DNA from: a virus
IMG/VR virus record: IMGVR_UViG_3300025141_000766
Span: 1-23,688 of that record
Reading direction: 5' to 3' (one strand)
Length of the DNA stretch: 23,688 nt
Part shown: piece after piece, positions 3,927 to 20,996 of the stretch
How the letters are laid out: each line of letters begins with the position of its first letter
How positions within the stretch are numbered: position 1 is the first letter of the stretch
Notes under the pieces: model-generated
What the model was told of the DNA's origin: nothing
What the model saw: the letters and a program-made list of their open reading frames with translations, nothing else
The model's database searches: none
Made by a program: the position numbers and the translations under genes

Positions 3927-5795
3927 ATGACAGATAAAAATCAGATTGCTAGGGACATTCTTTCGGATGTAACAGTGCACATGAAATATGCTAGATACCT
4001 TCCAGAGAAAGAGAGAAGGGAAACATGGGCAGAGATTGTAGATAGAAATAAAGAGATGCATACTAAAAAGTATCCAGAGCTACAAAGCGAGATAGATGAT
4101 GCGTATGAGATGGTATACGCAAAGAAAGTTCTACCATCAATGAGATCCATGCAATTTGGAGGCAAACCAATTGAGGTTGCTCCAAACAGAATCTATAATT
4201 GTGCATTTGCACCCATCGACGACTTTCGCGTCTTCAGCGAAGTCATGTTTCTATTGTTAGGCGGCACAGGTGTTGGTTATAGTGTGCAAAAGCACCACGT
4301 AGAAAAGCTACCAGAAATCCAGAAGCCAGCATCCAAACGAACGCGGCGCTTTCTAATTAACGATTCTATAGAAGGGTGGGCTGACGCGGTGAAGGCTTTA
4401 GTACAGTCTTACTTCAAGGGGGGCTCTAAATTACGTTTTGATTATTCAGACATTCGCCCAAAGGGCGCTCGGCTTGTTACCTCTGGCGGCAAAGCACCGG
4501 GTCCACAGCCGCTAAAAGAATGCCTAGTAAAACTCCAAGGCATGTTTGAAGCCAAAGAGAATGGAGATAAACTCACAACTATCGAAGCCCACGATATGAT
4601 CTGCCACATCGCAGACGCAGTATTGGCTGGTGGTATCCGTCGTGCTGCCCTCATCTCTTTGTTCTCTGCTGACGACAATGAAATGATTGCTGCTAAGACA
4701 GGCAACTGGTGGGAGACAGCACCGCAACGAGGCAGGGCAAACAACTCCGTTGTGCTTCTCCGACACAGGATTACAAAAGACTTTTTTCAAGATCTCTGGG
4801 AAAGAGTAAAAGAATCAGGTAGCGGAGAGCCCGGATTTTATTTTTCTAATGATAAAGACTGGGGGACCAATCCTTGCTGCGAAATCGCTCTTAGACCATA
4901 CCAGTTCTGTAATCTAACAGAGGTGAATGTTAGCGATGTTGACAATCAGGATGAGCTAAACAGCAGAGTTAAAACAGCAGCCTTCATTGGAACTTTGCAA
5001 GCTGGTTACTCTGATTTTCACTATCTGCGAGATGTTTGGAGAAGAACCACAGAAAAAGAGGCTCTTATTGGCGTTTCTATGACTGGTATTGCCTCTGGCA
5101 AAGTATTAAATTTGGATACAACTGAAGCCTCTGGAGTAGTGAAAAAGGAAAACGCAAGAGTGGCTAAAATGATAGGTGTCAACAAGGCGGCAAGATGCAC
5201 AACGGTTAAACCAGCGGGAACAACGTCTTTGACTCTTGGGACCTCTAGCGGCATCCACGCTTGGCATAACGAACATTATGTCCGCCGCCTCCGTGTTGGA
5301 AAAAACGAAGCGATCTATAACTACTTGTCCGTCTTCCATCCAGATATGGTAGAAGATGAGTATTTTAGACCGCACGATACGGCTGTTATCTCTATCCCCC
5401 AGAAGGCACCCGAAGATGCAATAATGAGAACCGAGAGCGCTCTTCAATTGCTAAAACGAGTCGCCAAGATTAGCACAGAGTGGGTCAAGCCCGGAACTCG
5501 GAATGGTCAAAACACTCACAATGTATCTGCAACGATCTCAATAAAAGAGGCAGAGTGGGCTGATGTTGGTGAATGGATGTGGGAAAACAGAGACATCTAT
5601 AATGGGCTATCAGTTTTGCCGTATGACGGCGGCAGCTACCGACAGGCACCTTTTGAAGATTGCTCTAAGGAAACTTACGAAGCCATGCTAGAAAGCTTGG
5701 AAGAAGTGGACTTGACAAAAGTGATAGAGGTAGAAGACAATACTAACCTAACCGGGGAATTGGCTTGCGCCGGAGGCGCATGCGAAATAAAGTAA
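3927..5795 (+). CDS. nrdJ: Monomeric class II (adenosylcobalamin-dependent) ribonucleoside-triphosphate reductase
   Basis: This 622-aa protein converts ribonucleotides to deoxyribonucleotides using adenosylcobalamin as the radical source. The residues expected from the Lactobacillus leichmannii enzyme appear in order. Cys92 (YNCAFAPIDD) and Cys328 (QFCNLTEV) form the active-site reducible pair. NPCCEI supplies Asn315, the radical Cys317 and Glu319. The C-terminal shuttle pair is Cys614/Cys619 (ACAGGACEIK). The 11-residue spacing from Cys317 to Cys328 matches the family. There is no separate small-subunit gene beside it, as expected for class II. It is shorter than the roughly 740-aa bacterial enzyme. 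An AAGGAG site precedes the ATG. The glutaredoxin encoded near 22242 might reduce its tail cysteines, which is inference. Confidence 0.93.
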   Translation: MTDKNQIARDILSDVTVHMKYARYLPEKERRETWAEIVDRNKEMHTKKYPELQSEIDDAYEMVYAKKVLPSMRSMQFGGKPIEVAPNRIYNCAFAPIDDFRVFSEVMFLLLGGTGVGYSVQKHHVEKLPEIQKPASKRTRRFLINDSIEGWADAVKALVQSYFKGGSKLRFDYSDIRPKGARLVTSGGKAPGPQPLKECLVKLQGMFEAKENGDKLTTIEAHDMICHIADAVLAGGIRRAALISLFSADDNEMIAAKTGNWWETAPQRGRANNSVVLLRHRITKDFFQDLWERVKESGSGEPGFYFSNDKDWGTNPCCEIALRPYQFCNLTEVNVSDVDNQDELNSRVKTAAFIGTLQAGYSDFHYLRDVWRRTTEKEALIGVSMTGIASGKVLNLDTTEASGVVKKENARVAKMIGVNKAARCTTVKPAGTTSLTLGTSSGIHAWHNEHYVRRLRVGKNEAIYNYLSVFHPDMVEDEYFRPHDTAVISIPQKAPEDAIMRTESALQLLKRVAKISTEWVKPGTRNGQNTHNVSATISIKEAEWADVGEWMWENRDIYNGLSVLPYDGGSYRQAPFEDCSKETYEAMLESLEEVDLTKVIEVEDNTNLTGELACAGGACEIK

Positions 5796-5803
5796 AAAAA
5801 AGC

Positions 5804-5840
5804 TTGACTTCCTCTCACATAAGGTATATTATGTGTGAGA
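5804..5840 (+). promoter_or_regulatory. Strong promoter with a dyad across the -10 box, upstream of the GroES cluster
   Basis: TTGACT (5804-5809) and TATTAT (5827-5832) are 17 nt apart. The -10 lies within an inverted repeat: ACATAA (5817-5822) pairs with TTATGT (5829-5834). The flanking TCTC (5813-5816) and GAGA (5837-5840) continue the pairing after a 2-nt bulge. No T-run follows, so this is more likely an operator or an RNA hairpin than a terminator. The predicted start is near 5839, about 38 nt upstream of the next ATG. Confidence 0.7.
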
Positions 5841-5876
5841 ATTGTAAAAAACATTTGTGTAAATAAAGGAGAAAAC

Positions 5877-6167
5877 ATGTTTGGAAAGCCAGTACCAGCA
5901 ATTGAAATTGTTGTAGAACAGAAGGAAGTAGTCCAGAAAGAGGAGCACATCTCAAACTATATCAAAGCCCTTGCAGCCGTTGAAGATGAGATGGAACCTT
6001 TGAAGGAACATAAGAGGGACTTGAAAGCCAACTACATTGAGAATGAATGGCTTTCAAAAGAAGAGATTAGTATGGCTGTGAAAGCATATCGTTTGCTAAA
6101 GGGCGACACCGACATGGACCAGCTAATGGACTTCTACGACCGCGTTTCAAAAACTGTTACAAAATAA
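5877..6167 (+). CDS. Small helical protein of unknown function
   Basis: This is a 96-aa protein that I do not recognise. The ATG at 5877 is chosen because AGGAG lies 5-6 nt upstream; an earlier in-frame GTG at 5835 overlaps the promoter dyad. Residues 15-60 are rich in Glu, Lys and Gln and probably helical or coiled coil. This is followed by a compact-looking segment with NEWLSKEEISMAVKAYRLL and DTDMDQLMDFYDRV. There is no signal peptide and no membrane segment. It is the first gene after the 5804 promoter and sits 9 nt before the GroES-like gene, so it is probably made early and together with it. Confidence 0.75.
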   Translation: MFGKPVPAIEIVVEQKEVVQKEEHISNYIKALAAVEDEMEPLKEHKRDLKANYIENEWLSKEEISMAVKAYRLLKGDTDMDQLMDFYDRVSKTVTK

Positions 6168-6176
6168 GGGGGGCAA

Positions 6177-6461
6177 ATGAATTTTTATCCTTGCAATAGG
6201 CACTTGTTAGTAGAAAAGACGGAACTTGAAGCAGAGGGGCATACGCCCCCTGCTGTCTTGCTTCCTGACGATTATAAGCCAAAAACAGACACCTACGGCG
6301 CGTACAAACTTCTTGTCGATGCCAATGACTGCTCTTTGGATGTTGATCCCGGCGACACTGTTATAGCAGAGCAAAGCATGGTTAAAGAGGTAGAGCATGG
6401 TGGGCAAAAGTATTTTTTAGTTCAGGAAAACTATGTCTTGGGCGTCTTCTCCGAGGAGTAA
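6177..6461 (+). CDS. groES: GroES-like co-chaperonin (Cpn10 fold, gp31-like)
   Basis: This 94-aa protein matches the Cpn10 plan. It opens with a strand like the GroES start (MNFYPCNRHLLVEK). A mobile-loop-length segment follows, with a hydrophobic AVLL triplet (about 27-30) where GroES has IVL, the chaperonin contact. Next come the central LDVDPGDTVIA, equivalent to the GroES VKVGDIVIF turn, and the closing strand ENYVLGVF. It would cap a GroEL ring, either the host's or the phage's own encoded at 19422, and could adapt the chamber for virion proteins, as T4 gp31 does. The ribosome site is AAGGGGGG. The same 12-mer AAGGGGGGCAAA occurs near a possible start at 7776. The downstream ATG follows its TAA directly. 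Confidence 0.85.
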   Translation: MNFYPCNRHLLVEKTELEAEGHTPPAVLLPDDYKPKTDTYGAYKLLVDANDCSLDVDPGDTVIAEQSMVKEVEHGGQKYFLVQENYVLGVFSEE

Positions 6462-7010
6462 ATGGATATTTCACACCTTATATGTGTTGCTGCCACTGCA
6501 CTTTCAATTTTCCCAAACTCGGACACAGTTTGCAAGCATGTGAACGTCGTTGTTGAACAATCTGATAAAAACGACATCGACCCCACTCTCCTTGTATCTT
6601 TGATAGCTGTAGAAAGCAACTGGAAACCGCATGTGGTCAGTCCTGCAAATGCATGTGGGTTGACACAAGCCTTGCCCAAGTATACAAAGAAGTATGGAGG
6701 CAAAGATCGCAACCTTACATGTGAGGAGTTGAAAGACCCGAACACAAGCATTACAGTGGGCGCGAAGATATTGAGCTACTGGGTCCACTCTTATGCGAGA
6801 GGTAACAAGACAACGGCTTTGTGTGGGTACAACGCAGGTTTTAGATGCAAGGGAGAAAATCGCAACGCTACTGGCATTAGGTATGCAAAAAAGGTTTTGA
6901 AATACCAAAGAATCTTGAAGCGTGAGATAAGGAAGAGAGAAAATGAAGAAAATAAACACACCAAAAATTGTGATAGGTTCTTCCTTGGAGTCAGTTCTTT
7001 TTGCCTCTAG
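6462..7010 (+). CDS. Lytic transglycosylase (SLT/lysozyme-like domain)
   Basis: This 182-aa protein starts with a hydrophobic segment (HLICVAATALSIF) that could act as a secretion signal or anchor. The SLT domain follows. ESNW has the catalytic Glu at 51, then SPANACGLTQ (60-69) and CGYNAG (121-126) with the conserved Tyr/Asn. It would cleave the MurNAc-GlcNAc bond of peptidoglycan, either for lysis or as a virion-associated enzyme during DNA entry. Several Cys (24, 65, 87, 121, 129) suggest disulfides in an exported protein. The basic C-terminal tail after about residue 150 overlaps the next gene by 68 nt and does not look conserved. The ATG follows the GroES-like stop directly. The SLT assignment is firm; its stage of action is not. 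Confidence 0.88.
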   Translation: MDISHLICVAATALSIFPNSDTVCKHVNVVVEQSDKNDIDPTLLVSLIAVESNWKPHVVSPANACGLTQALPKYTKKYGGKDRNLTCEELKDPNTSITVGAKILSYWVHSYARGNKTTALCGYNAGFRCKGENRNATGIRYAKKVLKYQRILKREIRKRENEENKHTKNCDRFFLGVSSFCL

Positions 7011-7749
7011 AAATAACTGCACACTTATTCTAAATAAAGTTAACCCACCTGAAATTTATGAAGCACAAGACCTTGAGGCGTGGAACAGAATAACATTTCT
7101 GTTATCCATGACCGGCAAGATCCCAATGTCCGACAAAACTTCAACAATCAGAATAATTGAAGAAGAGAAAAAAATAAAAGTTTTTACACTATCAAGCAGG
7201 ATGATTGAGTTTGCTTGCGATAAAGTCTTTGTTTTTGATGACGAGAATGTTGAAGGTCTCCCCGTTCCGACCACTAAGCACAAAAACCCCAAGAAGAAGA
7301 TTCTGGACTGGGTTAATGTGAGAGCGGGGATGTTGCACGAGTTTGAACTCATTGAAACGGGAGATGAATTTGTTAGTGAGATTCATTTTTATAAATCGCC
7401 TCGAATTGACGGAGATCATGAACACAAAGATTTAGTTGCCATCTCATATCTGACAGAGGAACAAATAAAAGACCACTCCTACTCAGACCTAATGACTTTG
7501 TACAAGGCAAAAGAGATAATGAAATCGCAAGGCATCAGAGGACCGAGAAATGGAAGAGACTCTAACAATCCAGAAAAGTACAAATACTATGATGTAAAAT
7601 TAGAGATGAATCGACGCGAAATAAAGAAGCTGCACATGGATTCATACGAGGACACAGGATTCATTTCCTTTTGTAAAAGGGATACTTACACCGAAAGGAA
7701 TGAATATATTTCAAAGCTCCATAATTACACTAGAGGTGGCGAGCGATGA
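6943..7749 (+). CDS. Protein of unknown function with a Rossmann-like N-terminus
   Basis: This is a 268-aa protein that I cannot assign. It opens with a beta-strand and glycine turn (PKIVIGSSLESVLFA) followed by a helix and a second strand (CTLILNK). That resembles the start of a nucleotide- or flavin-binding Rossmann fold, but no full GxGxxG is present. The remainder is mixed charged sequence with DPN/DNNPEKYKYYD-type segments and no membrane span. The ATG at 6943 is preferred despite a 68-nt overlap with the transglycosylase, because the ordered N-terminal fold would be lost with later starts and GGAAGAGAG lies upstream. It ends in an ATGA overlap with the Met-rich gene, so the two are probably translated together. 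Confidence 0.75.
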   Translation: MKKINTPKIVIGSSLESVLFASRNNCTLILNKVNPPEIYEAQDLEAWNRITFLLSMTGKIPMSDKTSTIRIIEEEKKIKVFTLSSRMIEFACDKVFVFDDENVEGLPVPTTKHKNPKKKILDWVNVRAGMLHEFELIETGDEFVSEIHFYKSPRIDGDHEHKDLVAISYLTEEQIKDHSYSDLMTLYKAKEIMKSQGIRGPRNGRDSNNPEKYKYYDVKLEMNRREIKKLHMDSYEDTGFISFCKRDTYTERNEYISKLHNYTRGGER

Positions 7750-8183
7750 TGTCATCTTCAAAGGGGGGCAAAAGAATGTCTAGTGCAGGAGCAGTCGGTT
7801 CAGGAGGAGGTGGTGGTGCAGCAGCAGCAGCAGCGCCAGCATCCAGTCAGAAAGTTACACCATCAGATGGTGCAGCGCCAGCGAACAACAACAATGATCA
7901 AGGCGTTGAGATGGGAGGGACACCGGGAGGTGGGGATTCCAACTCAACAAACATCAACATCACAAATGAGGTGAGTTGTTTTCAGAACATGAGTTCGGAG
8001 CAAGGTCTCCAGATTGGAGGCGGGTCCGAGATGGGTCAAATGGGCGAATCCGGTCAGATGGATATGGAAAAGATGATGAAAATGATTATGATGATGATCA
8101 TGATGAAGATGATGGAAAAAATGATGGAGCAAATGGGAGGCGGAGCCGAAGGTGGTGCGTCAATGATGGGAGGTGGGGGATAA
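7746..8183 (+). CDS. Low-complexity Met- and Gly-rich protein
   Basis: This 145-aa protein belongs to no family I know. Its parts are a Ser/Gly/Ala-rich start (GSGGGGGAAAAAAPASS), a polar Asn/Gly middle and a QMGESGQMDMEK segment. A run then follows in which roughly half the residues are Met (MMKMIMMMIMMKMMEKMM), ending in a GGGAEGGASMMGGGG tail. The Met run could form a very hydrophobic amphipathic helix, a metal-binding or a self-associating segment; this is inference. The start at 7746 has GAGGTGG upstream and an ATGA overlap. ATG 7776, behind AAGGGGGG, is an equally good alternative. Codon choice is coherent across the frame. The stop TAA (8181-8183) overlaps the problematic beginning of the next gene. 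Confidence 0.7.
   Translation: MMSSSKGGKRMSSAGAVGSGGGGGAAAAAAPASSQKVTPSDGAAPANNNNDQGVEMGGTPGGGDSNSTNINITNEVSCFQNMSSEQGLQIGGGSEMGQMGESGQMDMEKMMKMIMMMIMMKMMEKMMEQMGGGAEGGASMMGGGG
8168..8183 (+). promoter_or_regulatory. Strong Shine-Dalgarno plus G5A run at the stop of the Met-rich gene
   Basis: GGGAGGTG (8168-8175) is a near-perfect anti-16S match, followed by GGGG (8176-8179) and ATAA (8180-8183). The TAA stop of the Met-rich gene and an in-frame ATA of the next gene overlap here in the manner of the ATGA overlaps seen elsewhere in the window. The ATA lies 6 nt after GGAGG. The same run, GGGGGATAA, could also allow a P-site glycine tRNA to slip from GGA to GGG in the -1 frame before the stop. 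Confidence 0.5.
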
Positions 8184-9055
8184 GATCTCCTTTTCATTTA
8201 GCAGGCATTGTCCCCCTTTCAGGGGAAAAGTTAGATTTCAATTTCCCGTGGCATGATTCCATGCAACCAATTGGACCAGACTATCTAGCTGTAGAGAGAG
8301 CCGTTTTAGAATGTGCTTGGGCAGGTTGCGAAACAATATGGCTTGTATGTAATGATGACATGCAGCCCCTTATTCGCACCAGACTTGGCGAATACGTTAT
8401 TGATCCTGTTTCAATCGGCAGGTTGAACAAGTACCCCTCCGAATCAAGAAGAAAAATACCAATATACTATGTCCCTATTCATCCGAAAGACCTTGGCAAG
8501 AGAGATTGTCTAGCTTTCAGTGCCCTGTATGGCGCTTTGACCTCATATCACGTTAGCAATAAAATAAGCAAGTGGGTTGTGCCGAGCAGATATTACGTGG
8601 CGTTTCCATATGGGGTCTATGATCCTGAAATACTCAGAGAACATCGCCTAGACATCTCAAGTGATAACTCTTTCTTTTTATCCAGTGATGGTAAGACTGT
8701 CGCCAACGGAGAATACCTTGGATTTACTTTCGACGAAGAAGAATATAAAAAATACAAGAAAGTTATTATGGACGAGGGCACTGGCTATAGACCCAAGGGC
8801 ACAACGTTTGGGGACGAAGCTGTGTTGCCTCTAGAAGAAAGATGGAGCGCTGTTCATTTTAAGCTTGACACAGTTTTTAGATCTGCTAGAATAGCTGAAG
8901 CAAAAGTAGTTGAACTACCACAGTACAACAACATAGGCTCTTGGCAGGGACTAAGGGATTATTTAGCCTCGGATATGGAATTAGAAAAGCCAAACAAGCT
9001 GATTCTTTCTAGTAGGCAATGGAATAAGATAGGAGAAGATATTGAAAAAGAGTGA
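8180..9055 (+). CDS. Conserved-looking phage protein, possible nucleotidyltransferase-like fold; start uncertain
   Basis: The well-ordered part begins at IRSPFHLAGIVPL, followed by PWHDSMQPIGPDYLAVERAV and AGCETIWLVCNDD. The order HLAGIVPL, then PIGPDYLAVERAV, then AGCETIWLV loosely resembles sugar-nucleotide transferases. No catalytic site is proven, so this is a weak assignment. From memory, similar proteins in other marine phages begin close to this point with Met-Gly-Ile-Arg. The problem is the start: no ATG, GTG or TTG exists in this frame between 7976 and 8180. The options are an ATA start at 8180 (291 aa, as annotated), a -1 slip from the Met-rich gene, a TTG at 7976 giving an Asp-rich leader of about 68 residues, or a one-base error in the G run. 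The end overlaps the polymerase start by 14 nt. Confidence 0.65.
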   Translation: MRSPFHLAGIVPLSGEKLDFNFPWHDSMQPIGPDYLAVERAVLECAWAGCETIWLVCNDDMQPLIRTRLGEYVIDPVSIGRLNKYPSESRRKIPIYYVPIHPKDLGKRDCLAFSALYGALTSYHVSNKISKWVVPSRYYVAFPYGVYDPEILREHRLDISSDNSFFLSSDGKTVANGEYLGFTFDEEEYKKYKKVIMDEGTGYRPKGTTFGDEAVLPLEERWSAVHFKLDTVFRSARIAEAKVVELPQYNNIGSWQGLRDYLASDMELEKPNKLILSSRQWNKIGEDIEKE

Positions 9056-12000
9056 CATTCCATTTGTAGGATTACACGCCCACTCAGTGGCAGGGTCTTT
9101 TTTTGATGGATTAGGTTTTCCCGGCGAGCACATGGACAGTGCGTTCGATAACGGCATGGACTCTTTGGCTTTGACAGACCACGGCAACATGAATGGACTC
9201 AGCTATCAAGTTAACCATGCCAAGAAGATGATGGAAGAGGGGAAAGACTTCAAGCCAATCTTTGGAGTGGAAGCCTACTTTATTCCATCAGTTAAAGGCT
9301 GGAAAAAGGAATTGGTAAAAGAGAAGGATTCTAAAAAGAAGTCAAAATCAGGTCTAGTGATCGAGAATGAGGGTGCTTCCAAAAGTAAGAAAAGTAAAAT
9401 AAACAAAAGAAATCACCTCATCTTATTGGCTCAGAACCAAACTGGACTGAGCAATATTTTTAAGATGGTTTCTGATTCATATGTCAATGACAACTTCTAT
9501 CGCTATCCTCGCATGGATTACGATCTCTTGTCTAAACACAGTGAGGGGGTGATTGCTGCCTCTGCATGCTTAGGGGGCGTGTACGCTGGTAACTATTGGG
9601 ACAACCGAGACATGGGCAAAGATGCGGTTATCCAAAGTATGCGAAACACCACGGAGCGAATGATTGACATCTTTGGAGACCGATGGTACGGGGAGTTACA
9701 ATGGAACAACGTACCAGAACAGCATGAGTTGAATCAATATATCATTCAACTACATCACGAGTATGGCATTGAACTTATATCTACAGCCGACAGCCACTAC
9801 CCAAATAAAGATGCATGGCGAGACCGAGAGCTTTATAAGCGCCTTGGTTGGCTTGGCAAGAGTAGCCCCGATTATTTATCCGCCGAACTCCCTGTGAGCG
9901 TGGAAGAGATTGGGTATGAACTCTATCCAAAAAATGGCGACGAAATGTGGCAGTCATATAAATACTATTCTGAGAAAGTTGGTGCGTCATATAACGACAA
10001 GATGATCGAGGAATCTATTTTACGGACACATGATATCGCGCACAATAGGATCGAAAGATTCATGCCAGACAACAAGGTGCGTCTCCCCGGCTTTGTTGTG
10101 CCCGATAAGCAATCAGCTTCAGAGGCTCTCCGCAAATTTAGTGAAGGTGGTCTTGTTAAGCTTGGACTCATGAGCAAGAAGTATTCAAGTAGACTCGCTC
10201 TGGAGATGGATGTCATTAGCAAGCGAGGTTTTAGCGAATACTTTTTGACTATGAAGAGCATCGCTGACAAAGCCACAGACTGCCAGCTTGTTGGATCAGG
10301 TCGTGGCTCTGCTGCTGGCTCTCTTGTTGCATATGCTCTGGGTATCACACAGATTGACCCCATCAAATACAAGTTGCAGTTCGAGAGGTTCATGACCAAA
10401 GACCAGACGGACTACCCTGATATCGATTATGATGTTTCGGATCCAATGGAACTAAAGGAAATGCTGATTGATGATTGGGGTCGCAACACAGTTGTGCCCA
10501 TCTCGAATTTCAATACGCTACAACTTCGTTCGCTTGTGAAGGATATTTCTAAGTTTTACGGCGTACCATTTACAGAAGTCAACCCCGTCACCTCAAAGAT
10601 GTTGAAGGAGGCAACTCCGTTAGCTAAAAAAGCACACGGAATCAAGGCAGGTGTCTACACTCCGACCTTTGAGGAGCTAAAGGAGTATTCAGAATCACTC
10701 AAAACATTTCTGACAAAATACCCCCATATCGCTAGCCATATTGATGTTATTTTTGGACAGCCGAGATCCATTAGTCGTCATGCTGGGGGAGTCGTTATCG
10801 GTGAAGATTTGGATAAGTATATGCCGCTTATAAATAGTGGCGGCGTCGTACAGACTCCATGGTCCGAAGGGCAGAACGTCAGACACTTAGAGCCCATGGG
10901 ATTTATTAAGTTTGATATTCTAGGACTTGCGTCTCTGAGAATGATGGAGGGTGCAATTAGACATATTCTCAAGAGGCACCACGGTATTGAAAAACCCACT
11001 TTTGACGATGTGAAACACTATTACGACACCAAACTGCACCCTGAGAAAATTGACTTAGATGACCAGAAGGTTTATAAGGGTGTCTTTCATAAAGGGAAAT
11101 GGGCTGGCATCTTCCAATTCACGGAGGGCGGAGCGCAGGATTTCTGCAAGAAGGCAAAACCAAAGAGCATCATCGACATCGCTGCTATTACTAGTATTTA
11201 TCGACCGGGACCACTTAGCGCAAAAGTAGACAAAATGTACGTCAAAGCAATGAGAAAGCCCGAGGCGGTCGAGTATGCAAGCGACATTGTAAAAGAGGTA
11301 ACAGAAGAGACTTATGGCTTCCTAATTTTCCAAGAGCAGATTGCACTACTTGCACATAAACTGGGTGATGGACTTTCTCTAGACGAGGGGAACGCTCTTC
11401 GCAAGTTGTTGACCAAGAAAGGAACCGGCAAGGTGCAAGAGAAAAAGGACAAGATATATAAAAAGTTCGTGTCTGGGTGCACCAAAAAAGGTCTAACCAA
11501 AGGAAAAGCACAAGAGCTATGGCAAACGTTTGAGTATTTCTCAGGGTATGGTTTCAACAAGTCACACGCTGTTTCTTACTCGGTGCTGTCATACCAGTGC
11601 GCTTGGTTGTTGAACTACTATCCAGCAGAGTGGATGGCTGCATTCTTGGACAAAGAGCCAGAGTCTAGAAAGGAGAAGGCAATTGCGATTGCAAAGCAGT
11701 TTGGCTTCAAGGTTGAACCATTAGATGTTAATAAGTCCGGAGAGGTATGGGAGATTAGTGAGGATGGCAAAGTTCTTATTCAACCACTAACTTCCATCAA
11801 GGGCTTAGGCGGCGCAGCGATGGAGCAGATTCTGGAACACCGACCTTTTTCTAAAGTAGAGGACTTCCTCTTCAATGAGGAGATGGTTTATTCTAAATTG
11901 AACAAAAAGGCACTTGACGTTCTGTGCAGGGCTGGTGCACTAAAGCCCTTGATGGATAACAGGTTTAGTGGCGAGAAGCATTTCTGGAGTTCGGTTGCAG

Positions 12001-12443
12001 TAATGCGACCTCGTAAAGAGAAAAATCTACTAGAGAACATTGAGAAGTATAAAGATGAGGGCGACTTCTCCAACTATGAAAAGATCGAGCATCTTTCCAG
12101 CCTGACAGGAGCTTTTCCGCTCAGTCTTGTCATGGATGATGATGTCATGGCTAGATTAGCTGAATTACATATCCCACCAATATCTGAATATGATGTTGAC
12201 TTGGGTGCCGCATGGTTTATCCCCAGAAAAATCAACATCAAGAGAACAAAAAATGGGAAAGAGTATTACATAGTAGAGGTGATTGATTCTAATAATGCTT
12301 TGACTTCAATCAAGTGCTGGGGTGTCAACTCTAAAAAAGACAAGATTGCGGTCAATCGACCTTACATGGGAAGATTAGAATATGACGAGCAGTGGGGGTT
12401 CAGCACTAGATCAATCAGCAGAAACTTTAGACTTTTAGGATAA
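9042..12443 (+). CDS. dnaE: C-family replicative DNA polymerase (PolIII alpha) with PHP domain
   Basis: This 1133-aa protein is nearly the length of bacterial DnaE (about 1160). The N-terminal PHP domain keeps metal-ligand motifs HAH (His12, His14) and LTDHGN (Asp46, His47), which are degenerate in E. coli. The palm has GSGRGSAAGS (about 418-427), YPDID with Asp460 and Asp462, and KFDILGL with Asp625, the expected catalytic triad. IYRPGPL and YGFNKSH follow in the usual order. IKGLGGAAMEQI is the helix-hairpin-helix region, and a C-terminal OB-like stretch follows. The TTG start at 9042 has AGGAG 6 nt upstream. No separate proofreading exonuclease is seen, and an active PHP domain might supply it, as described for Thermus. 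A Lys-rich insert at about 86-120 (KEKDSKKKSKSG) interrupts the PHP domain. Confidence 0.95.
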   Translation: MKKSDIPFVGLHAHSVAGSFFDGLGFPGEHMDSAFDNGMDSLALTDHGNMNGLSYQVNHAKKMMEEGKDFKPIFGVEAYFIPSVKGWKKELVKEKDSKKKSKSGLVIENEGASKSKKSKINKRNHLILLAQNQTGLSNIFKMVSDSYVNDNFYRYPRMDYDLLSKHSEGVIAASACLGGVYAGNYWDNRDMGKDAVIQSMRNTTERMIDIFGDRWYGELQWNNVPEQHELNQYIIQLHHEYGIELISTADSHYPNKDAWRDRELYKRLGWLGKSSPDYLSAELPVSVEEIGYELYPKNGDEMWQSYKYYSEKVGASYNDKMIEESILRTHDIAHNRIERFMPDNKVRLPGFVVPDKQSASEALRKFSEGGLVKLGLMSKKYSSRLALEMDVISKRGFSEYFLTMKSIADKATDCQLVGSGRGSAAGSLVAYALGITQIDPIKYKLQFERFMTKDQTDYPDIDYDVSDPMELKEMLIDDWGRNTVVPISNFNTLQLRSLVKDISKFYGVPFTEVNPVTSKMLKEATPLAKKAHGIKAGVYTPTFEELKEYSESLKTFLTKYPHIASHIDVIFGQPRSISRHAGGVVIGEDLDKYMPLINSGGVVQTPWSEGQNVRHLEPMGFIKFDILGLASLRMMEGAIRHILKRHHGIEKPTFDDVKHYYDTKLHPEKIDLDDQKVYKGVFHKGKWAGIFQFTEGGAQDFCKKAKPKSIIDIAAITSIYRPGPLSAKVDKMYVKAMRKPEAVEYASDIVKEVTEETYGFLIFQEQIALLAHKLGDGLSLDEGNALRKLLTKKGTGKVQEKKDKIYKKFVSGCTKKGLTKGKAQELWQTFEYFSGYGFNKSHAVSYSVLSYQCAWLLNYYPAEWMAAFLDKEPESRKEKAIAIAKQFGFKVEPLDVNKSGEVWEISEDGKVLIQPLTSIKGLGGAAMEQILEHRPFSKVEDFLFNEEMVYSKLNKKALDVLCRAGALKPLMDNRFSGEKHFWSSVAVMRPRKEKNLLENIEKYKDEGDFSNYEKIEHLSSLTGAFPLSLVMDDDVMARLAELHIPPISEYDVDLGAAWFIPRKINIKRTKNGKEYYIVEVIDSNNALTSIKCWGVNSKKDKIAVNRPYMGRLEYDEQWGFSTRSISRNFRLLG

Positions 12444-19421: not shown

Positions 19422-20996
19422 ATGTCCAGAAAATATGATTGCAAAAGCTCTTTGCAGCAGAAAATCCTCACCGGGATTGACGTTCTAGCTGACAACGTGG
19501 CTTCCACAATGGGTCCAAAAGGACGCAATGTTATTATACATCAAAAGGGTGCAAACCCATTCATCACAAAGGACGGAGTGACCGTCGCAAAGTTTGTTGA
19601 ACTCGAAGACCACTTCGAGAATGCAGGTGCTCAAATTATTCGGCAAGCATCTGAGCAGACAAACAATGTTGCTGGTGATGGCACAACTACTGCAACGGTT
19701 CTTTCCCGAGCAATCTTAAAACATTCACAAAAATATATTACCGCTGGGTCATCTCCCGTTGAATTGAAACGAGGGATTGATAAGGCAGTACAAGAAGTTG
19801 TCACAGCCATCGCAGATATCTCACGACCAATCACATCGGAGAAGGATGTGGCTCACATTGCTACCATCTCAGCCAACGGCGATACAGTTATCGGAGAGAT
19901 GATTGCAACTGCCGTTGACAAGGTTGGAAAGAACGGTTCGATTACAATCGAAGAGGCTCGCTCTGTTGAGAGTGGGCTTACAGTTGTTGAGGGATTCCGA
20001 TTCGGCTCGGGGTACCTGTCGCCGCAGTTTGTCACAGATGAACGCCGCAAGCTAATCAAGTATGAAGACCTGCTTGTGCTGGTAACGGACGCCAAGATTG
20101 ATGCTGTTGATGACATCCTCCCAGCCCTTGAACTGGTTGCCCGTGAGGGACGCCCTCTACTAATTGTAGCCGAGGACATTGAAGGGCAAGCTCTTGCTGC
20201 TTTGATTATGAATGCGGCACGAGGCACAATGAAAATAGCAGCAGTCAAGGCACCTCGTTATGGAGAGGAGAGGCGAAATATATTAAAGGATCTAGCCCTA
20301 TCTGTGGGCGGCACGTTTATGTCACGCGAATCTGGTAAGACACTTAGAGATATTACACTCTCGGATTTTGGCAAAGCAAAGACCATTGAGGTTACAAAGC
20401 GTTCTACCACCATCGTCGATGGCGAAGCTGATTACGATGAAGTAGAGAAGCGTATCGAAGATCTCAAGACGGAGATGCAGGACACAGAGTCTATCCAAGA
20501 GTGCGAACAGATTCAGGAGAGGATTACTCGCCTTGCTTCTGGGGTCGCGATCATCCATGTCGGCGCTCATACAGAGGTCGAGATGATCGAGAAGAAGCAC
20601 CGGCTGGAGGATGCTCTTGAGGCGGTCAAGTCAGCACAGGAAGAGGGTGTTGTCCCCGGAGGTGGGAGTGCCTTGGTAAAGATCGCTAAGAACCTAGAGG
20701 CACCAGAGGGGCTCAATCAAGACCAGCTATTTGGATTTGAGATTGTAAAGAAGGCTGTGCAGGAGCCAGCGAGACAAATGGCAAAGAATGCCGGATTATC
20801 CCCAGATCTAATATTATCTGAAATTGAGGCCTCCCAAGAAAATTGCGGCTACAATTTTTCCAATAATGAGGTTTGTGACTTGTATGATACTGGAATCATT
20901 GATCCTGCAAAAGTAACCCGAGTAGCACTGCAAAATGCAGCTTCAGTCTCCTCTTCACTTATTTTGGCTAATTTTGCTATTGTGCAAACTGAATAG
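19422..20996 (+). CDS. groEL: Phage-encoded GroEL-type chaperonin (Cpn60)
   Basis: This 524-aa protein aligns with bacterial GroEL over its whole length. STMGPKGRNV and TKDGVTVAK (Asp51) come first. NNVAGDGTTTATV has the nucleotide-site Asp86. GYLSPQF and ALAALIMNAARG are in the apical domain. RLEDAL has Asp397, which matches the ATPase Asp398 of E. coli, and GVVPGGGSAL follows. The ATP machinery therefore looks intact. Differences lie in the apical groove, where GYLSPYF of E. coli is GYLSPQF and VVNTMRG is IMNAARG. The disordered GGM tail is missing; the protein ends NFAIVQTE. It has its own promoter and probably partners the GroES-like protein encoded at 6177. Few phages carry both. Confidence 0.96.
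   Translation: MSRKYDCKSSLQQKILTGIDVLADNVASTMGPKGRNVIIHQKGANPFITKDGVTVAKFVELEDHFENAGAQIIRQASEQTNNVAGDGTTTATVLSRAILKHSQKYITAGSSPVELKRGIDKAVQEVVTAIADISRPITSEKDVAHIATISANGDTVIGEMIATAVDKVGKNGSITIEEARSVESGLTVVEGFRFGSGYLSPQFVTDERRKLIKYEDLLVLVTDAKIDAVDDILPALELVAREGRPLLIVAEDIEGQALAALIMNAARGTMKIAAVKAPRYGEERRNILKDLALSVGGTFMSRESGKTLRDITLSDFGKAKTIEVTKRSTTIVDGEADYDEVEKRIEDLKTEMQDTESIQECEQIQERITRLASGVAIIHVGAHTEVEMIEKKHRLEDALEAVKSAQEEGVVPGGGSALVKIAKNLEAPEGLNQDQLFGFEIVKKAVQEPARQMAKNAGLSPDLILSEIEASQENCGYNFSNNEVCDLYDTGIIDPAKVTRVALQNAASVSSSLILANFAIVQTE

Follow-up and report, generated by a model that had tools for sequence, protein, structure and literature searches.

A phage gene with a probable AUA start codon in an ATAA overlap behind an extended Shine-Dalgarno sequence

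The conserved gene at positions 8180..9055 (291 codons and a TGA stop) of the phage sequence analysed here very probably starts at AUA, using an ATA codon (8180..8182) that lies in a -4 nt ATAA overlap (8180..8183) with the TAA stop of the preceding gene and is served by an extended Shine-Dalgarno (SD) sequence, with initiation probably aided by termination-reinitiation. The sequence is IMG/VR record IMGVR_UViG_3300025141_000766, analysed as a single stretch of 23,688 nucleotides (the window), and all features of the junction are on its plus strand. The original prediction had weighed ATA 8180 against a slip at the stop codon of the upstream gene, one G too many in the sequence, and a TTG-started Asp-rich leader. 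ATA 8180 is by far the best of these readings, as it is kept across a clade of related uncultured phages, is well spaced from its SD and has no usable canonical start competing with it.

The junction and its conservation

The upstream gene (7746..8183, 145 codons and TAA in the open reading frame list) encodes a Met/Gly-rich protein with relatives both in the ATA clade and in phages bearing a cysK-like gene, and it ends as originally read, in ATG ATG GGA GGT GGG GGA TAA. Its product carries a Met-rich helix-like run, MEKMMKMIMMMIMMKMMEKMMEQM, flanked by Gly-rich stretches and conserved in related phages. The downstream gene is in the -1 frame relative to the Met-rich gene and reads ATA AGA TCT CCT TTT CAT (IRSPFHLAGIVPL). 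This frame contains no stop from 7970 to 9055, and its sole ATG, GTG or TTG at or upstream of 8180 is TTG 7976, bearing out the claim that the conserved gene has no usable canonical start. The first canonical codon downstream of the ATA is codon 28, which lies past the conserved FHLAGIVP...DFNFPWHD block, and a start downstream of the ATA would therefore cost invariant residues; in L005 alone there is a canonical codon at codon 13, likewise within the conserved block.

The extended SD, GGAGGTG (8169..8175), lies within the Met-rich gene at a spacing of 6 nt between GGAGG and the ATA, and is invariant in the clade. Its duplex energy with the 16S tail, -15.2 kcal/mol, ranks first among 32 window genes (median -7.3) and also first among 59 homologues of the downstream gene (median of those without ATA -4.0, next best -10.5), and 0.15% of random sites reach this value. 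Third positions of the Gly codons that form the SD are invariant between lineages; nearby Gly, Ala and Ser codons vary. The only leader codons one base off ATG in all lineages are the ATA itself and two AGG codons at -10 and -3, and ATA 8180 is the only near-cognate start both common to the lineages and properly spaced from the SD.

A protein search of IMG/VR identified 80 relatives of the downstream protein, five of which have the junction GGAGGTGGGNNATAAGATC in common with the window, including an identical ATAA overlap: L001 and L002 (95% protein identity) and L003 to L005 (85%). These are contigs from five other metagenomes and belong to two further lineages. A DNA pattern search recovered the same five contigs; L087, an extra match from a looser pattern search, was rejected as a chance match. 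The junction letters of L003 to L005 are GGGCAATAA, in which GGA GGT GGG CAA TAA lacks a G run and keeps the same frame relation. The leaders of the five relatives span 50, 50, 21, 21 and 21 codons and hold no ATG, GTG or TTG, TTG 7976 being absent. Each of the remaining 75 relatives, at no more than 64% identity, carries an ATG or GTG 0 to 15 codons ahead of the matched N-terminus, and in the alignment the ATA column is occupied by ATG in L076 and L077 and by GTG in L078. The ATA clade forms a single branch (support 100/100) joined with L006 (support 96/96). The proportion of changed synonymous sites is 0.55 between the window and L001 and 0.67 between the window and L003, so these three are well separated. 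L003 to L005 are almost identical within the downstream gene, which leaves about three haplotype groups as evidence in what is a small clade; moreover, the overlapping TAA fixes the T and second A of the ATA, so only its first A can reveal constraint. The GTDB genomes added one relative, L088, on the contig of a metagenome-assembled genome, and annotated phage records contained no relative of the downstream protein or of the window DNA.

The missing canonical start appears to be confined to this gene. In a start survey of 468 same-strand open reading frames with homologues from 81 sequences, the copies of the five relatives stood out for having no canonical start when set against 76 of 76 diverged homologues (65 of 76 for L005). 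Beyond them, strong cases were limited to a truncated-looking DNA polymerase III frame in L038 and a small three-member family (L072, L073 and L079). The downstream gene is the clear case in the survey, so the anomaly is a single site and not an altered start rule in these phages. The L038 frame (5142-8333), encoding a polymerase III alpha subunit, lacks the conserved N-terminal part of its homologues and may be a frameshift or split gene. In the window a bacterial-type DNA polymerase III alpha subunit gene (9042-12443) has a TTG start, and the same phage encodes a GroEL (19422-20996; phrog_5725, E 1e-143). General reassignment of AUA was rejected, as internal ATA codons align with Ile; AUA would therefore be used as a start under an unchanged code. 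No tRNA gene, and so no phage-encoded special initiator tRNA, was found in the window or in the examined stretches of the clade contigs, which are fragments.

Initiation at AUA and competing readings

We propose that the long, well-spaced SD would set a ribosome with initiator fMet-tRNA on the AUA, which would be accepted despite the third-position mismatch with this tRNA. Ribosomes terminating at the UAA of the Met-rich gene would probably be able to re-initiate through the 4-nt overlap, and output is expected to be below that from AUG. Initiation itself, the tRNA used, the coupling, the expression level and the order of events are what we infer from these features. A stricter version, in which the AUA works solely via re-initiation by the ribosome terminating at the overlapping UAA, is possible but somewhat doubtful; if true, the AUA would be coupling-dependent and the yield of the downstream protein would be a fixed proportion of that of the Met-rich protein.

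Among alternatives to AUA initiation, the one that survives best, though improbable, is a programmed -1 frameshift close to where the Met-rich gene ends, which would produce a Met-rich/nucleotidyltransferase-like fusion of ~436 residues. The Met-rich frame does enter the downstream gene in the correct relative frame, and the Gly-rich tail could serve as a linker. Every lineage has a GGA-GGT at which a weak single-tRNA slip, with the P-site tRNA moving from GGA to GGG, could take place, and the window and L001 also allow a P-site slip at GGA-TAA. However, the latter, the slip at the stop codon put forward originally, is gone in L003 to L005 (GGG CAA TAA) with the frames unchanged, and it cannot be the common mechanism because the GGA before the stop is lost there. 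No lineage has a tandem site at which both tRNAs could re-pair, and a shared slippery site of the X_XXY_YYZ type was not found, only single-tRNA sites. Nor is there a conserved stimulatory structure: RNA folds, considered either as stimulators or as blocks on the SD, differ by lineage and are unremarkable against shuffles, with the exception of one window-only fold (z -2.7) that is not in L003, whose downstream stretch has a z-score of +0.4. GGAGGTG sits on the slip site rather than ~10 nt upstream of it, a position ideal for initiation at the ATA, and the two genes are kept separate in other phages.

Marginally less probable still is that translation begins shortly upstream at a different non-canonical codon, for example the AGG at codon -3 or the one at codon -10. 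Both are one base off ATG and present in all lineages, but the AGG at -3 belongs to the SD itself, the one at -10 is far upstream of the SD, and as a start codon AGG is far weaker than AUA. Such a start would also extend the protein into a leader frame that shows no selection at the protein level.

The same lack of selection bears on the Asp-rich leader (7976..8179), for which a TTG start at 7976 had been considered. Over the final 50 codons of the Met-rich frame, dN is 0.15 and dS 1.84 between the window and L003, and the same DNA read in the downstream frame gives dN 0.29 and dS 0.15. The downstream gene itself, compared between lineages none of which has a canonical start, shows a dN/dS of ~0.03-0.06, indicating on these rates that the gene is under strong purifying selection and the leader frame is not. 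All five relatives lack a canonical leader start, stop codons cutting their leaders to 50 or 21 codons, and a TTG-started leader cannot be the common mechanism because the relatives' leaders are without ATG, GTG or TTG. We therefore rejected a coding role for the leader, which is the mere appearance of ATGATG codons read in another frame.

That the downstream gene is a decaying copy whose translation has been lost in the clade is very hard to credit: the canonical start is indeed missing, but the reading frame is full-length and stop-free in 6/6 sequences and its dN/dS is as low as given above. An error of sequencing or assembly in the window's five-G homopolymer (8175-8179), masking a GTG start, can practically be dismissed, since L003 to L005, with GGGCAATAA, share the frame relation without a G run, GGGGG recurs in three different sequences, and L001, L002 and the window were assembled separately and differ at many nearby sites; with relatives so well separated, an error shared by all sequences is not credible. 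The Met-Gly-Ile-Arg start that the original prediction attributed to relatives in connection with this reading occurs in no relative. The comparisons proposed with the original prediction, of N-termini and of the G run in relatives, thus favour ATA over its other three readings.

The downstream protein and the origin of the junction

Neither Pfam nor PHROG has a family that matches the downstream protein, and no convincing hit came from searching PDB sequences with a profile. An AlphaFold2 model built with 47 aligned sequences (pLDDT 83.5) has RmlA-type nucleotidyltransferases as its nearest Foldseek matches (best E 3e-8; best rows at TM ~0.4-0.5 and 7-15% identity), and the protein is predicted to have an RmlA-like (GT-A) nucleotidyltransferase fold. 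It may resemble RmlA-type enzymes in this predicted fold and in its first predicted strand, which lies near the N-terminus that the ATA defines, both that strand and the conserved block beginning 5-6 residues past the ATA; it differs from them in the low identity and TM values and in the absence of a Pfam match. RmlA-type proteins usually have a glycine-rich GTRL-type loop after the first strand, and in the alignment no GxGTRL-type loop follows LAG in the family consensus LAGIVPVAGQPLDFNFPWHD.

Gene order in other phages suggests how the junction may have arisen. There a cysK-like gene (cysteine synthase-like by sequence alone), whose start is a canonical ATG, GTG or TTG, follows the Met-rich gene, and the homologue of the downstream gene comes after the cysK-like gene where the contig extends that far. 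This intervening position of the cysK-like gene was seen in L015, L025, L029, L047, L092, L096, L098 and L101, and the gene has no match in the window. L006, which is sister to the ATA clade, carries an ATG-started copy of the downstream gene directly behind a relative of the 268-aa gene, and no Met-rich match was found there. Several cysK-bearing relatives have a Met-rich gene ending in CAA TAA or CAA TAG, already with an ATA in the -1 frame.

The simplest history that we infer is that recombination in the clade ancestor set the Met-rich ending against the 5' end of the downstream gene, that this gene lost its ATG, and that the ATA across the last codon and stop of the Met-rich gene took its place, with a strengthened SD that is now the strongest known for this gene family. 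A possible alternative is a single ATG-to-ATA change in an ATGA overlap, which would preserve a stop (TGA to TAA). As a separate observation, L005 (941-2352) differs clearly from L003 and L004 in its 268-aa gene and in the 5' half of its Met-rich gene, with the ATA junction unchanged; its 268-aa gene is 30% identical to the window's copy and that of L003 69%. This pattern points to recombination just upstream of the ATA junction.

Relation to known AUA starts and overlapping genes

AUA starts with extended SDs have been documented in Staphylococcus aureus for ccpN and infC, and in S. aureus reporters of tested genes AUA proved a poor start, giving ~10-30% of the AUG output (PMC13009471). The phage gene resembles these in having an AUA start that is kept among relatives and preceded by an unusually long, strong and suitably spaced SD; it differs in that theirs are bacterial genes, whereas here a phage gene has an AUA, predicted from sequence, that overlaps the upstream stop. 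Gene pairs with a -4 nt overlap and translational coupling have a published NTGA motif with the stop TGA (PMC12548453, PMC6728339). As in those pairs, start and stop at our junction share bases at -4 nt and the SD is within the upstream gene; unlike them, the overlap is ATAA with the stop TAA in 6/6 sequences, the published NTGA form not being found in any. Also unlike NTGA, an ATAA overlap cannot arise with an ATG, GTG or TTG start. In the literature searched, of which our coverage was partial, no ATAA overlap with an AUA start was found in a phage. AUA starts with an extended SD are thus already known, and the phage case adds a variant with an ATAA overlap.

Because the gene callers in common use recognise no starts other than ATG, GTG and TTG, the gene will be miscalled, with a spurious 68-residue leader, 27 residues short, or as a frameshift. 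To judge from this conserved case in phages, an AUA start backed by a strong SD can be maintained over long divergence. The case also suggests an evolutionary route to such starts, in which genes become joined at a stop codon containing an ATA; its products are searchable as ATAA or ATAG overlaps at -4 nt. If coupling is general, such overlaps would make up a category of starts that gene finders overlook.
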